Shown here: piece by piece, positions 12,260-40,163 of the stretch
How positions within the stretch are numbered: the stretch's first letter is position 1
How the letters are laid out: every line of letters begins with the position of its first letter
Made by a program: the position numbers and the translations under genes
Assembly: GCA_001800315.1 (NCBI GenBank)
Contig: MGVE01000014.1
Coordinates: 49,358 to 113,357 of the forward strand
Direction: 5' to 3'
DNA from: Elusimicrobia bacterium RIFOXYA2_FULL_47_53
GTDB lineage: Bacteria > Elusimicrobiota > Endomicrobiia > Endomicrobiales > XYA2-FULL-47-53
DNA length: 64,000 bases
Notes under the pieces: generated by a model
What the model saw: only the letters and a program-made list of their open reading frames with translations
Databases searched by the model: none
What the model was told of the DNA's origin: nothing

Positions 12260-12271
12260 TTTATAAGAATA

Positions 12272-12345
12272 TCGGGGTGACTGGATTTGAACCAGCGGCC
12301 TCACGGTCCCGAACCGTGCGCTCTAGCCAACTGAGCTACACCCCG
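12272..12345 (-). tRNA. tRNA-Pro (anticodon CGG)
   Basis: Minus-strand cloverleaf with acceptor CGGGGTG/CACCCCG, D stem GCTC/GAGC, anticodon stem CACGG/CCGTG around loop TTCGGGA giving CGG, T stem GCTGG/CCAGT and discriminator A. CCA is not encoded. Three nt upstream of its 5' end begins a foldback element, and 12 nt downstream starts acyP. Confidence 0.95.
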
Positions 12346-12348
12346 ACT

Positions 12349-12507
12349 ATTTTGGCAAGGCCATATTTTTTTCTGTTGCAGAAACAACATTTGGGCTACG
12401 GCTTCGTCTTTCTCAGCTAACATAGCGATGCTATGTTTCGCTTCGCAATCCTCGCCTCGCCACAAATCTTGTTTCTTCACTACGAAAACATATGGCCTTG
12501 CCAAAAT
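12349..12507. repeat. Foldback element E1 next to tRNA-Pro(CGG)
   Basis: A 159-bp element bounded by perfect 18-bp inverted repeats: ATTTTGGCAAGGCCATAT at 12349-12366 and its complement at 12490-12507. The core alternates GGCTTCG, TCTCAGCT, the hairpin ACATAGC-GAT-GCTATGT, CGCTTCG and CCTCGCCTCG, a style shared with the cores of E2, E3 and E4, which have different termini. Non-coding. Confidence 0.8.
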
Positions 12508-12661
12508 ACCGGAAAACCAGAAACTTCGCTACGAAAACATATGGCTTTGCCAAAATAACCGAAAACCGAAAAACTTGAGATCCGCTGCAAAACCGATCCC
12601 CTTTGCCAAAATACCGGAAAACCAGAAACTTCACTACGAAAACATATGGCCTTGCCAAAAA
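12508..12661. repeat. Array of alternating element right ends, locus 1
   Basis: Three units of 49, 56 and 49 bp follow E1 directly. The 49-bp unit ends in CATATGGCCTTGCCAAAAT, the right end of E1; the 56-bp unit ends in CGATCCCCTTTGCCAAAAT, the right end of element E2. Order is P-Q-P. No coding potential. Confidence 0.85.
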
Positions 12662-12799
12662 TAGACGGCAACTACGGAATCCGGTTTTGCCTGATTCGCG
12701 AATTAGCCGATACTTCAATGAGCAGGAAAGGATTCTACTAAATATTCACTGCAAGGTCAATCTAAATTGAATCCAGCGAGTTCAATGTGCCCAAGGTCT

Positions 12800-13260
12800 G
12801 ACGGTGGAGATTTCACCAGGCATGTAAAGTCACCCTGAACGAAGTGAAGGGTCTCGTTTTTCATCCAACGACGAGATTCTTCTCTCCCTGCGGGAGATCG
12901 GAACGACGGCGTTTGTGGATTCGGGACAGAATATTTTAAGTTGTAAGCTTTAAGTGAACGGCGAACTTCGTCGTGTCGTCATACCAGCGGAAGCTGGTAT
13001 CCAGAGGTTTTTCTGATCCCAGACTGAAGATTTTTGGGATGACAGCTTTTCTGGATTCCTGCTTTCCAGACTGTGTCGTAACTGTCATTAACGAGGGCTT
13101 TGAACTGTTGTCATGCTGAACGCAGTGAAGCATCTCTACGGTAAAAATAACTTCGAGATCCTTCGCTTACGCTCAGGATGACATTGCCACACAGTCTGTT
13201 CGCAGGAATGACAGACTTTCTTTATGTCATTATAACCAGAAGGTAGTAGTCTGGGATCCA
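12800..13260. repeat. Composite dispersed repeat island 2
   Basis: Non-coding. Contains CTCCCTGCGGGAG, AGTGAACGGCGAACTT, the palindrome TACCAGCGGAAGCTGGTA with CCAGAGGTTTTTCTG after it, GCTTTGAACTGTTGTCATGC with GCAGTGAAGCATCTC, and GGGATCC edges. Several modules are inverted relative to island 1. Confidence 0.8.
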
Positions 13261-13283
13261 CAAATAAAGTGAGAGGCCCCAAG

Positions 13284-13775
13284 CTACCATTTTTTGAACA
13301 TGAAGAATGTGGCGCCAATTATCATTAAAAAACTTACAAGATAGTTCCATCTGAAATCTTCCTTCAAATAGAAAAAAGAAAATACGGCAAAAATCACTAA
13401 AGTTATTATTTCCTGAATCGTTTTTAACTGCGCGGCGGAAAACTGATAATGGCCGATGCGGTTTGCCGGCACCTGAAAGCAATATTCCACAAACGCTATC
13501 CCCCAGCTGATGAGCACAACTTTTAACCCGGATTTTGCAATAGAGAGCGGTATTCTTCAAGCGATGCCGGATTTTTGTGTCCGCAAATAGCTCAACCGAT
13601 GTCCCTGCATCGCTTTCGCTTTTTACGTCACAAAAGCCTCGGCCTCACTCGCCTCGGTACTCGCTTCTATTGCAAAACCCGGGTTTAAAAGCGGAGAGCT
13701 TTTATATTTTAAATGGCCGTACCAGGCGACGGTCATAAAAATATTTGAAATAGTCAGAAGGATTATCGTTCTCAT
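13284..13775 (-). pseudogene. DUF486 membrane protein split by an insertion
   Basis: DUF486 proteins are roughly 110-residue, four-helix DMT-like membrane proteins. The N-terminal part (MRTIILLTISNIFMTVAWYG, then HLKYKSSPLL) reads from 13775 to about 13686 and the C-terminal part (VVLISWGIAF...CFQVPANRIGHYQF...FMFKKW) from about 13525 to 13284. Between them a 170-bp foldback element (E4) introduces stops and a frame change. Removing the element with one copy of TTAA restores SPLL-KVVLISW, which is the family sequence, at about 109 residues. The gene lies 20 nt after panD and was probably cotranscribed with it. The second half might still be translated alone but would lack the first helix. Confidence 0.88.
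13521..13690. mobile_element. Foldback/MITE-like element E4 inserted in DUF486
   Basis: A 170-bp non-coding insertion with imperfect inverted termini of about 28 bp: TTTTAACCCGGATTTTGCA at the left and the complement of TTTTAAACCCGGGTTTTGCA at the right. The junctions share TTAA, so a TTAA target duplication is likely. The core has the same GATGTCCCTGCATCGCTTTCG and GCCTCGGCCTCACTCGCCTCG style as E1-E3. This is the copy that shows the class is, or was, mobile. Confidence 0.82.
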
Positions 13776-13795
13776 TGATGGGCAGCCGGGGGTGT

Positions 13796-14137
13796 TTAGA
13801 GGAATTTTGTAAATTTGTTGTTTTTGTCCACATGGACATTCTGCGGTTTTACCTGCTTGTCGGAAAGCTCAAACCCCATGACAATTATTTCCTCGCCCTT
13901 TTTAATCAGATGGGCGGCCGCGCCGTTCATGCAGATTATCCCTGAATCGCGTTTGCCTGTCATTACATAGGTTTCAAGCCGCTGGCCGGTGGTATTGCTT
14001 ACAACGAGCACTTTTTCCCCGGGCATAAAGCCGGCTCGCTGGATTAAGTCCTCGTCAATAGTAATGCTTCCGATATAATTTACATCGGCTTCAGTTACAA
14101 TTGCTTTATGAATTTTTGACCGTAAAAACCATCTCAT
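13796..14137 (-). CDS. panD: Aspartate 1-decarboxylase proenzyme
   Basis: A 113-residue PanD, which decarboxylates L-aspartate to beta-alanine for pantothenate and coenzyme A synthesis. The self-cleavage site is Gly23-Ser24 in NYIGSITID, which yields the pyruvoyl group; the start MRWFLRSKIHKA is typical. A longer frame reaches into the tRNA gene and is rejected. The ATG lies only 20 nt from the tRNA-Pro(GGG) 3' end with no Shine-Dalgarno sequence; a CCCGAA/TTCGGG stem using the tRNA end spans the gap. No other pantothenate gene is nearby. Confidence 0.95.
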   Translation of the reverse strand: MRWFLRSKIHKAIVTEADVNYIGSITIDEDLIQRAGFMPGEKVLVVSNTTGQRLETYVMTGKRDSGIICMNGAAAHLIKKGEEIIVMGFELSDKQVKPQNVHVDKNNKFTKFL

Positions 14138-14157
14138 AATTATTTGCCCGAAAAAAT

Positions 14158-14231
14158 TCGGGGCGGCCAGATTTGAACTGGCGACCTCTCCCACCCCAAG
14201 GGAGTGCGCTAGCCAGCTACGCTACGCCCCG
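14158..14231 (-). tRNA. tRNA-Pro (anticodon GGG)
   Basis: Minus-strand cloverleaf with acceptor CGGGGCG/CGCCCCG, D arm GCGT/GCGC, anticodon stem CTCCC/GGGAG around TTGGGGT giving GGG, T stem GCCAG/CTGGC and discriminator A. CCA is not encoded. A foldback element starts 3 nt upstream, exactly as at the other tRNA-Pro gene. Confidence 0.95.
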
Positions 14232-14234
14232 ACT

Positions 14235-14393
14235 ATTTTGGCAAAGGGGATCTTGTTTTTACTGCGGAGTCAATATTTGAGTTTCAACTTCGTCATTCTC
14301 GCCTTGCGTAGCGTTGCTACGCCGCGTCTTGAATTCCTCGTTTCACTTCAAATCTTGACTCCTCGCTACAAAACCGATCCCCTTTGCCAAAAT
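14235..14393. repeat. Foldback element E2 next to tRNA-Pro(GGG)
   Basis: A 159-bp element with perfect 18-bp inverted termini ATTTTGGCAAAGGGGATC (14235-14252; complement 14376-14393). Its length equals E1 and its first nine bases are the same, but the rest of the terminus differs. The core contains AACTTCGTCATTCTCGCC, the hairpin GCGTAGCGTTGCTACGC and TTCCTCG. Non-coding. Confidence 0.8.
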
Positions 14394-14603
14394 ATCGGAA
14401 AACCAGAAACTTCACTACGAAAACATATGGCCTTGCCAAAATAACCGAAAACCTAAAACTTGAGATCCGCTGCAAAACCGATCCCCTTTGCCAAAATACC
14501 GGAAAAACCAGAAACTTCACTGCGAAAACATATGGCCTTGCCAAAATAACCGAAAACCGAAAAACTTGAGATCCGCTACAAAACCGATCCCCTTTGCCAA
14601 AAT
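14394..14603. repeat. Array of alternating element right ends, locus 2
   Basis: Four units of 49, 55, 50 and 56 bp in the order P-Q-P-Q, followed by a broken fifth unit up to about 14620. P ends as E1 ends, Q as E2 ends. Units match those at 12508-12661 almost base for base, so the two loci exchange or share a common source. Confidence 0.85.
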
Positions 14604-14657
14604 ACCGGAAAAACCAGGAATTAAGGCAAAAAAACAACAGAGTTTTGGTGGATATAA

Positions 14658-15035
14658 TTATTTCAACAATTCAAGCAGCTCTTCAAGTTCTTTTTTTGCT
14701 TCCGCTATCGTTTCACCGTAGCCGGAATTATCCTGCGGTTTAACTTCCATGTTGAGCTGTACGCCTTCTTCGGGCGATGTTTTCTTCCTGCCAAACAGCG
14801 CCTTGCGGGCTCCGGCGATAGTAAATTTTCTTTCGTACAAAAGCCCCTTGATCTGGAAAATAAGTTCAAGGTCTTTCTTTGTGTATTTTCTCTGGCCCGA
14901 ATTCCTTCTGGCGGGGCGCAGCTGCTTAAACTCGCTCTCCCAGTAGCGTAAAACATAAGCCGGGAGCTGCGAAAGCCTGCTTGCTTCTCCTATAGAAAAA
15001 AATTCCTTGTCAGGGAAAATTGGTGTAAGTTCCAT
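14658..15035 (-). CDS. MerR-family DNA-binding protein
   Basis: A 125-residue protein with an N-terminal MerR winged-helix domain: FSIGEASRLSQLPAYVLRYW is the helix-turn-helix and the wing/second helix follow (RRNSGQRKYTKKDLELIFQI, FTIAGARKAL). The C-terminal 40 residues are acidic and probably coiled-coil, with no metal-binding cysteines. Such short MerR-like proteins often sit beside HU/IHF genes. Here it lies 131 nt downstream of the HU gene and may be cotranscribed with it. Target genes are unknown. Confidence 0.85.
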   Translation of the reverse strand: MELTPIFPDKEFFSIGEASRLSQLPAYVLRYWESEFKQLRPARRNSGQRKYTKKDLELIFQIKGLLYERKFTIAGARKALFGRKKTSPEEGVQLNMEVKPQDNSGYGETIAEAKKELEELLELLK

Positions 15036-29925: not shown

Positions 29926-30855
29926 ATTGGGGTCAGGTCTTTAGATTTAACATTAGGGATTATTGACATTGACAATCCTGCTCACGGTTACATAATGTAA
30001 ACCTAAATGTTTTGCTATATCTGCCTGCTTGTATCCAAACTTAATGTGCGCCTCAATAATCTTTATGTTTCGTTCTTTTATAGATTTAACATCAGCAAAT
30101 AGTTCCTTAAGTTTCTGTCGGTTTGCGTGCCGCTGTTCCCTTGGGATCTCAATCTGATTGTATTTCTCGGCAACTTTTACGCCCATATCTTCCATGAACG
30201 CTTCTCCACCCATAAAGACTTGACCCACCACATCTCCCCAAGGAGCTTTTTGACCCATTTGTTCTGCCACAAAGATTTGATACCGCTTTATTGATTCTCT
30301 CAGAGATGCGCCAAATTGCTCAGCAATGTAACCGGTATCCAGCCATTTAGGTGGAAGTTCTCTTCCGATTGTGGCGCGATAACTGCTCCACTGCCAATCA
30401 TCTGGCTGGCACACCATCTTTGCCCGCACAGGATTAAGAACAATATATGCGCTTAGGGCCATCAAATAATTCTGTTTTTCAACAATAAATGCTTTGTAGC
30501 GCCCCTGAAACACATGCCCGGTTTTCTTGTGTTTACGATTAAAAAATTGAGTATACACACCGTTCAGCTGGCGCATACCAAGACTAAGATTGGGCATAGT
30601 GGTTTCTATCAGAAGATGATAGTGATTATTCATTAAACAATATGCGTAGCATTTCCATTTATAACGCTCAACTACAAGTCTAACTGTGCGCAGGAACATA
30701 TTCTTGTCTTCATCAGACAAAAAGATTCTCCCTCGAGCATTGCCGCGCGAAGTTATATGATATAGTGCTCCTGCATATTCTATTCTTAAAGGGCGTGCCA
30801 TAATATTGTTATGCTATAAAACTAAATGCTAAATGTAAAGACCTGACCCCATTGT
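29926..30855. mobile_element. RAYT transposase unit bounded by inverted repeats
   Basis: The transposase gene is flanked by about 28-bp inverted repeats: TTGGGGTCAGGTCTTTAGAT at the left (from 29927) and its near complement ending in AAAGACCTGACCCCATTG at the right (to about 30854). The right end lies just upstream of the gene and probably includes its promoter; the left end abuts the stop codon. The compact layout suggests one transposable or REP-like unit. Confidence 0.75.
29953..30801 (-). CDS. REP-associated tyrosine transposase (RAYT, HUH superfamily)
   Basis: A 282-residue Y1-type single-strand DNA transposase. The family start MARPLRIEYAGALYHITSRG is intact, the HUH metal site is His60-Tyr-His62 in NNHYHLLIE, and the catalytic Tyr is among those in QNYLMALSAYIVLNPVRAKM (Tyr112 or Tyr119). 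A C-terminal helix-turn-helix (YKQADIAKHLGLHYVTVSRI) marks the long RAYT subgroup. RAYTs nick and move palindromic REP DNA. The reading frame is complete, so it may be active. Confidence 0.93.
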   Translation of the reverse strand: MARPLRIEYAGALYHITSRGNARGRIFLSDEDKNMFLRTVRLVVERYKWKCYAYCLMNNHYHLLIETTMPNLSLGMRQLNGVYTQFFNRKHKKTGHVFQGRYKAFIVEKQNYLMALSAYIVLNPVRAKMVCQPDDWQWSSYRATIGRELPPKWLDTGYIAEQFGASLRESIKRYQIFVAEQMGQKAPWGDVVGQVFMGGEAFMEDMGVKVAEKYNQIEIPREQRHANRQKLKELFADVKSIKERNIKIIEAHIKFGYKQADIAKHLGLHYVTVSRIVNVNNP

Positions 30856-39989: not shown

Positions 39990-40163
39990 AATTTGAGTCA
40001 GTTGAAAAACCTCTTTCGGGCTGCAATTTCGGTCTTTGGCCTGCGGCTTCGTTGGCCTCAGCTTACAGATACTCCGTGGAGCATATGCTCGCTTCGGCCG
40101 TCTTGCCTCGGCGCAAAGCCCAAAATTTCGCTCCTGAAACAGGCTTTTCAATTGACTCAATTT
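39990..40163. repeat. Foldback element E3 upstream of nspC
   Basis: A 174-bp element with inverted termini AATTTGAGTCAGTTGAAAA and the complement of AAATTGAGTCAATTGAAAA (17 of 19 match). The core contains CTGCGGCTTCGTTGGCCTCAG, ACTCCGTGGAG, GCTTCGGCCG and CTTGCCTCGGCG (given in parts), the same style as E1. Non-coding. The following 230 bases to 40395 are AT-rich and hold nothing I can identify. Confidence 0.78.

Follow-up and report, generated by a model that had tools for sequence, protein, structure and literature searches.

Two tRNA-Pro genes in the genome studied here, 1.9 kb apart, are each bordered by a foldback and a run of short alternating repeats, which raises the question of what these repeats are and how they came to lie at the edges of tRNA genes. 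We analyzed the locus within a window of 64,000 nucleotides (the whole stretch of DNA under study), in the remainder of the genome (G000) and in genomes of the same and other phyla. The repeats at the Pro loci are part of a family of ~160-base DNA hairpins that had not been catalogued before; this large family, and the arrays that accompany it at other tRNAs, had been overlooked in the preliminary description of the locus. Coordinates are listed in Table 1.

Table 1. Hairpins, repeat arrays and associated features, in window coordinates.
Feature	Position	Strand	Basis and details
tRNA-Pro(CGG), docking gene 1	12271..12346	(-)	ARAGORN
Type A hairpin, CGG locus	12348..12508	(-)	Inverted repeat; covariance model 171.7 bits; tRNA-proximal end 12348, distal end 12508
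CGG array, P-Q-P	12509..12661	(-)	P 12509-12557, Q 12558-12613, P 12614-12661 (+ order)
Promoter-like TTGACC-17-TAGAAT beyond CGG array	12732..12760	(-)	10/12 match; weak alone
tRNA-Pro(GGG), docking gene 2	14157..14232	(-)	ARAGORN
Type A hairpin, GGG locus	14234..14394	(-)	Inverted repeat; covariance model 162.7 bits; tRNA-proximal end 14234, distal end 14394
GGG array, P-Q-P-Q and truncated P	14395..14620	(-)	P 14395-14443, Q 14444-14498, P 14499-14548, Q 14549-14604, stub to ~14620
Promoter-like TTGAAG-18-AATAAT, TG extension, beyond GGG array	14657..14686	(-)	9/12 match; weak
Type B hairpin, same structural family	39994..40159	(-)	Covariance model 90.7 bits

Both tRNA-Pro genes are on the minus strand, and the foldbacks and arrays therefore lie upstream of them, in the order array, hairpin, tRNA when read in the tRNA sense. 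The two hairpins are ~161 bp long, with arms of 46-47 nt that are 85% and 83% complementary. A foldback does adjoin the 5′ end of each gene as previously described, but the exact 3-nt gap reported then is not present: the hairpins start 1 nt past the tRNA end called by ARAGORN, or 2 nt from the mature 5′ C. The promoter-like site beyond the CGG array would place that array in the tRNA leader, although six such sites were found in the region against 4.4 expected. No such hairpin was detected in the tRNA-Pro flanks examined in relatives, and we rejected inheritance from the tRNA-Pro loci of those relatives. A separate, unrelated palindrome of ~169 bp (13521-13689) with TTAAA repeats at its flanks was identified inside a DUF486-like gene, whose frame is continuous on either side of this insert with two stop codons.

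The array units are of two types, P (about 49-50 bp) and Q (55-56 bp). Coordinates, unit alignment and tandem repeat analysis (TRF) all bear out the previously described order of units at both loci, as well as the assignment of P to the distal end of the CGG hairpin and of Q to that of the GGG hairpin. TRF reported a period of 49 bp at the CGG locus (3.7 copies, score 225) and of 106 bp at the GGG locus (2.4 copies, 95% matches, score 466). P units are 92-96% and Q units 95-98% identical among themselves, no closer within a Pro locus than between the two. An 11-mer, TATTTTGGCAA, opens every unit (one with an extra T). It occurs 14 times in the 2.41 Mb genome, ten times at the Pro arrays and four times elsewhere; the reversed control pattern occurs seven times, and the four occurrences outside the Pro loci are background.

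The first genome search revealed a third hairpin, in front of tRNA-Val(GAC). A survey of the 44 tRNA genes of the genome, focused on the flanks of the best-scoring loci, added three others: one precedes tRNA-Thr(GGT), and one each immediately follows tRNA-Tyr and tRNA-Gly, which are clustered with tRNA-Thr beside a tuf-like gene. Aligned by sequence only (MAFFT), six copies fold into one long hairpin, with double compensatory changes in 48 of 59 pairs. In an alignment of 47 rows such changes occur in 57 of the 59 pairs, and 93.4% of cells are paired, compared with 64% in shuffles and 34-46% in slid controls. The element consists of a conserved ~120-nt hairpin core and terminal arms of ~20 bp, and is mostly 160-170 bp long. 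In the type A form, to which both Pro hairpins belong, the arms are variable yet complementary (roughly NNN-TTTGGCAA and about 9 variable nt), and the core carries a conserved TTTCGTAGCGA/GCAGYAGAAA internal-loop motif followed by a GTAGC-nnn-GCTAC tip. A search with 4227 Rfam covariance models returned only tRNA matches and a sub-threshold sX4 match near tRNA-Tyr, ruling out a known RNA family, and a literature search returned no description of such an element.

The covariance model detected 24 loci in G000, and 14 (G005), six (G003) and five (G002) in genomes from three other families of the order. Overall, family members are present in four other genomes of the order and in other families and classes of the phylum. 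The core pattern was also found in metagenome-assembled genomes (MAGs) labelled Gribaldobacteria, Patescibacteria, Thermoanaerobaculales and unclassified CSMAG_488, with 19 and 14 copies in two of these, although MAG binning errors may account for copies in other phyla and the Thermoanaerobaculales scores are low (40-50 bits). Carriage by viruses or plasmids was considered and rejected, as IMG/VR contained no match to the core pattern and PLSDB none to two copies.

Two kinds of copy can be distinguished. Type B comprises about nine copies that are almost the same throughout the genome; most of them are flanked by target duplications of 5 bp (AAATT, AACTT, AAGTT, AATTT or ATATT), and the type looks like an ordinary, recently mobile miniature inverted-repeat transposable element (MITE). 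Its terminal repeats also bound other short elements of the genome. Among 30 loci examined out of 53 type B-like ends, most ends pair at 58-237 bp, and no transposase was identified between partners within 1.5 kb. In the window, the type B hairpin extends over the start of an ORF of 430 aa whose C-terminal domain is that of PLP decarboxylases. Type A copies have diverged, with a core identity of about 63% (0.637 within and 0.626 between genomes), and show no clear target duplication, the one possible case being CCGA at a tRNA-Leu gene. Given the equal identity within and between genomes and the lack of clear target duplications, recent movement of type A is not seen.

Type A hairpins meet genes in a consistent manner. 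In G000, nine of 13 lie 0-2 nt from a tRNA gene (binomial tail for chance placement, 8.6e-28): two Pro, two Val, and one each of Thr, Tyr, Gly, Arg and Leu, four docked at the 5′ end and five at the 3′ end. The earlier suggestion that a shared insertion point at two tRNA-Pro genes reflects targeting is thus supported and extends to nine tRNA genes and to ORF ends. Docking is not proline-specific, and we ruled out targeting confined to tRNA-Pro since the docked genes serve seven amino acids. Across four genomes, the proximal end of the hairpin lies within 5 nt of a tRNA end in 16 of 32 type A copies and the distal end in none. The proximal end also meets the stop codons of ORFs (offsets of -2 to +11 nt) assigned, partly from C-terminal sequence, to B12-type ribonucleotide reductase (RNR; two genomes), glmS, ftsW and rubrerythrin. 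Docking at tRNAs is rare beyond the order: two small-genome MAGs of other groups each contain one hairpin with the same end 4-5 nt from a tRNA (2/33 copies), and none of the loci examined in other classes is docked at a tRNA. By eye, two hairpins adjoin terminator-like hairpins. A role as transcription terminator is unlikely, as in one cluster hairpins separate tRNA-Tyr, tRNA-Gly, tRNA-Thr and the tuf-like gene, and four tRNAs have a hairpin immediately upstream.

Several other arrangements were observed at gene ends. At six loci from other classes (L206, L207, L208, L230, L238 and L239), hairpins are flanked by CTAG-like sequence (CTAG/CTAA) in which the adjoining ORF terminates, mostly with the stop TAG, a neat gene-sparing target. 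At another locus (L086), a cobalamin riboswitch match (RF00174, 1310-1701) spans the hairpin (1501-1662), which may extend one riboswitch stem. In L060, the full tRNA-Thr(GGT) gene is followed by an incomplete repeat of its 3′ half (1689-1731), as if another small element had inserted and restored the tRNA. A distinct element of G005 seems to have split or duplicated the 3′ ends of tRNAs at their T arm (L134, 2180-2380; L131, 2346-2551; L136, 2028-2248), and appears to separate one docked hairpin from its tRNA-Leu.

Searching with a distal-end profile revealed extra copies at Pro-CGG, Pro-GGG, Val-GAC, Thr, Val-TAC and Arg, and at a tRNA-Lys gene of G002, so that arrays occur at several tRNAs in two bacterial families. 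The copies have the same orientation as the hairpin and lie only on its gene-distal side. By eye, two unit types alternate at both Pro loci, both Val loci and Lys; three types are mixed at Thr, and a single repeat unit of one type is present at Arg. At Val-GAC the units are 63 and 64 bp, and TRF reported a 127-bp block repeated 2.3 times with 96% matches. Alternation at Pro-GGG and Val-GAC thus amounts to a two-unit block (106 and 127 bp, respectively) in tandem, which weakens the proposal of ordered accumulation as opposed to slippage: ordinary tandem duplication of such a block yields alternation, and ordered unit-by-unit growth is not required. This leaves the make-up of the units to be explained: within a locus, the types largely agree over their outer ~11 nt but diverge over the ~9 nt that follow, much as if a single site had been docked by two different elements.

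The hairpins could instead act as RNA, as structured leaders or trailers of the tRNA transcript involved in processing, protection or regulation, with the array units as alternative partners of the tRNA-proximal arm. In line with this, hairpin and tRNA fold as separate neighboring units (z = -7.2), and three loci have a promoter-like site on the far side of the array (an 11/12 match at Val, weaker at Pro). However, selection on RNA predicts more GU than AC combinations in the transcribed strand, and the arms in transcript orientation contain 17 GU and 27 AC, compared with 15 GU and 2 AC in tRNA acceptor stems. Arm pairing thus seems to be kept at the DNA rather than the RNA level. One DNA orientation faces tRNAs at both their 5′ and 3′ ends, so that the transcribed strand differs; the type B copies, nearly identical and bordered by target duplications, behave like mobile DNA; and there is no Rfam match. 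We consider the RNA reading improbable. Template switching, which can create and maintain perfect stems (PMC8794818), could underlie a rival history devoid of insertion targeting, in which chance palindromes near genes grow during replication, selection fixes the gene-facing arm, the far arm is overwritten and the arrays arise by slippage at stalled forks. The process is documented in microbes (PMC8794818, PMC7202029), and would accommodate both the Watson-Crick rather than wobble complementarity of the arms and the restriction of arrays to the gene-distal side. It also fits the RNR locus of G003, where the proximal arm consists of the last 11 nt of the ORF, which encode a C-terminus (KCW-stop) that the RNR of G000 shares, and an exact inverted copy of these 11 nt opens the distal arm; this distal arm is evidently matched to the gene end. 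Left unexplained are the conserved core motif and near-constant length of ~160 bp over several phyla, as well as the near-identical dispersed copies with target duplications, and we regard this history as unlikely.

Known mobile systems offer two further candidates. REP/BIME palindromes contain GTAG, recognized in the folded strand by Y1 transposases (RAYT/TIRYT), and GTAG is present in the core and tip of the hairpin described here. Y1 transposases occur in most hairpin-bearing genomes, with matches in those of the order that were searched (G000, 5; G001, 9; G002, 15; G003, 8; G005, 4), and G004 has neither Y1 nor hairpin matches. This correlation is loose, since G084 has 14 hairpin copies and no Y1 match and G007 has seven Y1 matches and no hairpin match. 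The surroundings of 30 Y1 loci contain no hairpin (one weak, unrelated match), and the Y1 genes examined are flanked by inverted repeats of other kinds. REPs are also only 20-40 bp long (PMC3733652), whereas the hairpin is about 160 bp, carries its GTAG internally and docks on gene ends. We set RAYT/Y1 mobilization aside on the absent linkage to Y1 loci and rate it as quite improbable; across these loci and the type B-like ends examined, no transposase was linked to the family. The window itself encodes a Y1 transposase-like gene (30442-30765, minus strand; G000:C14:79799-80122) with imperfect inverted repeats TGGGGTCAGGTCTTTAGATT.. on both sides. The hairpins might alternatively be attC-like recombination sites of a dispersed cassette system. 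As in integron attC sites (for example, PMC11641012), recognition of a folded DNA hairpin is plausible, structure is conserved more than sequence, and hairpins directly follow stop codons at ORF ends. This reading is already disfavored by the missing RYYYAAC/GTTRRRY boxes in the arm/end consensus NNNTTTGGCAA; the hairpins lie outside cassette arrays, beside housekeeping genes (tRNA, glmS, RNR) and also at tRNA 5′ ends, making it scarcely credible.

The closer likeness is to MITEs: the hairpin is short and non-coding, has terminal inverted repeats (arms of ~20 bp) and is scattered through the genome (24 loci). Tn7 inserts at attTn7 beside glmS, a safe site at a conserved gene end. One hairpin similarly lies 2 nt after a glmS stop codon (L139), but the family is non-coding, lacks Tn7 ends and uses many genes. 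Bacterial MITEs such as Correia/NEMIS and ERIC share its small size, lack of coding sequence, terminal inverted repeats and dispersal, and type B copies mostly carry 5-bp target duplications; a review of MITEs mentions attTn7 and makes no mention of tRNA in its text (PMC10969869). Type A differs from these in its variable but complementary arms, a single fixed end flush with tRNA and gene ends, its distal-end arrays and the lack of clear target duplications. Taken together, the hairpins form a new, MITE-like structural family that is unusual in docking by one end.

We give an even chance to the account in which the foldbacks are dispersed, non-autonomous, palindromic MITE-like elements that were docked by a putative enzyme, whose end blocks were tandemly duplicated and whose arms are kept complementary at the DNA level. 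The enzyme would insert the element in the form of a folded DNA hairpin, or by way of one, and would set one end at the border of a tRNA or coding gene, a placement that would allow the gene to survive. The pattern of the distal ends suggests that a single site was docked first by one element and then by a different one; in the simplest history, the core of the older one would have been lost after the second docking. Tandem duplication next to the palindrome may then have amplified the resulting two-end block on the gene-distal flank, as duplication on the gene side would presumably harm the gene. The arrays of the two Pro loci may also have exchanged sequence, as suggested by the 92-98% identity of P and Q units across them. 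The arms could remain complementary through template-switch copying, a need for a folded DNA intermediate, or both, rather than through selection for an RNA stem.

Small palindromes in bacteria are commonly regarded as debris; here, a single structural family extends over several phyla. Because its members dock strictly by one end on tRNA and gene ends, the idea that a non-coding hairpin targets safe sites becomes testable. Strong covariation with no excess of GU is a warning that compensatory changes can arise at the DNA level and need not indicate a functional RNA. More speculatively, and with a small though appreciable probability, the family may be multi-phylum mobile DNA that is recognized by its folded shape and not its sequence, integrates in one orientation at the ends of tRNA and protein genes and gains its own arm by copying the gene edge in inverted form, the arrays being a record of successive dockings. 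If so, each insertion would carry an address matched to its locus.
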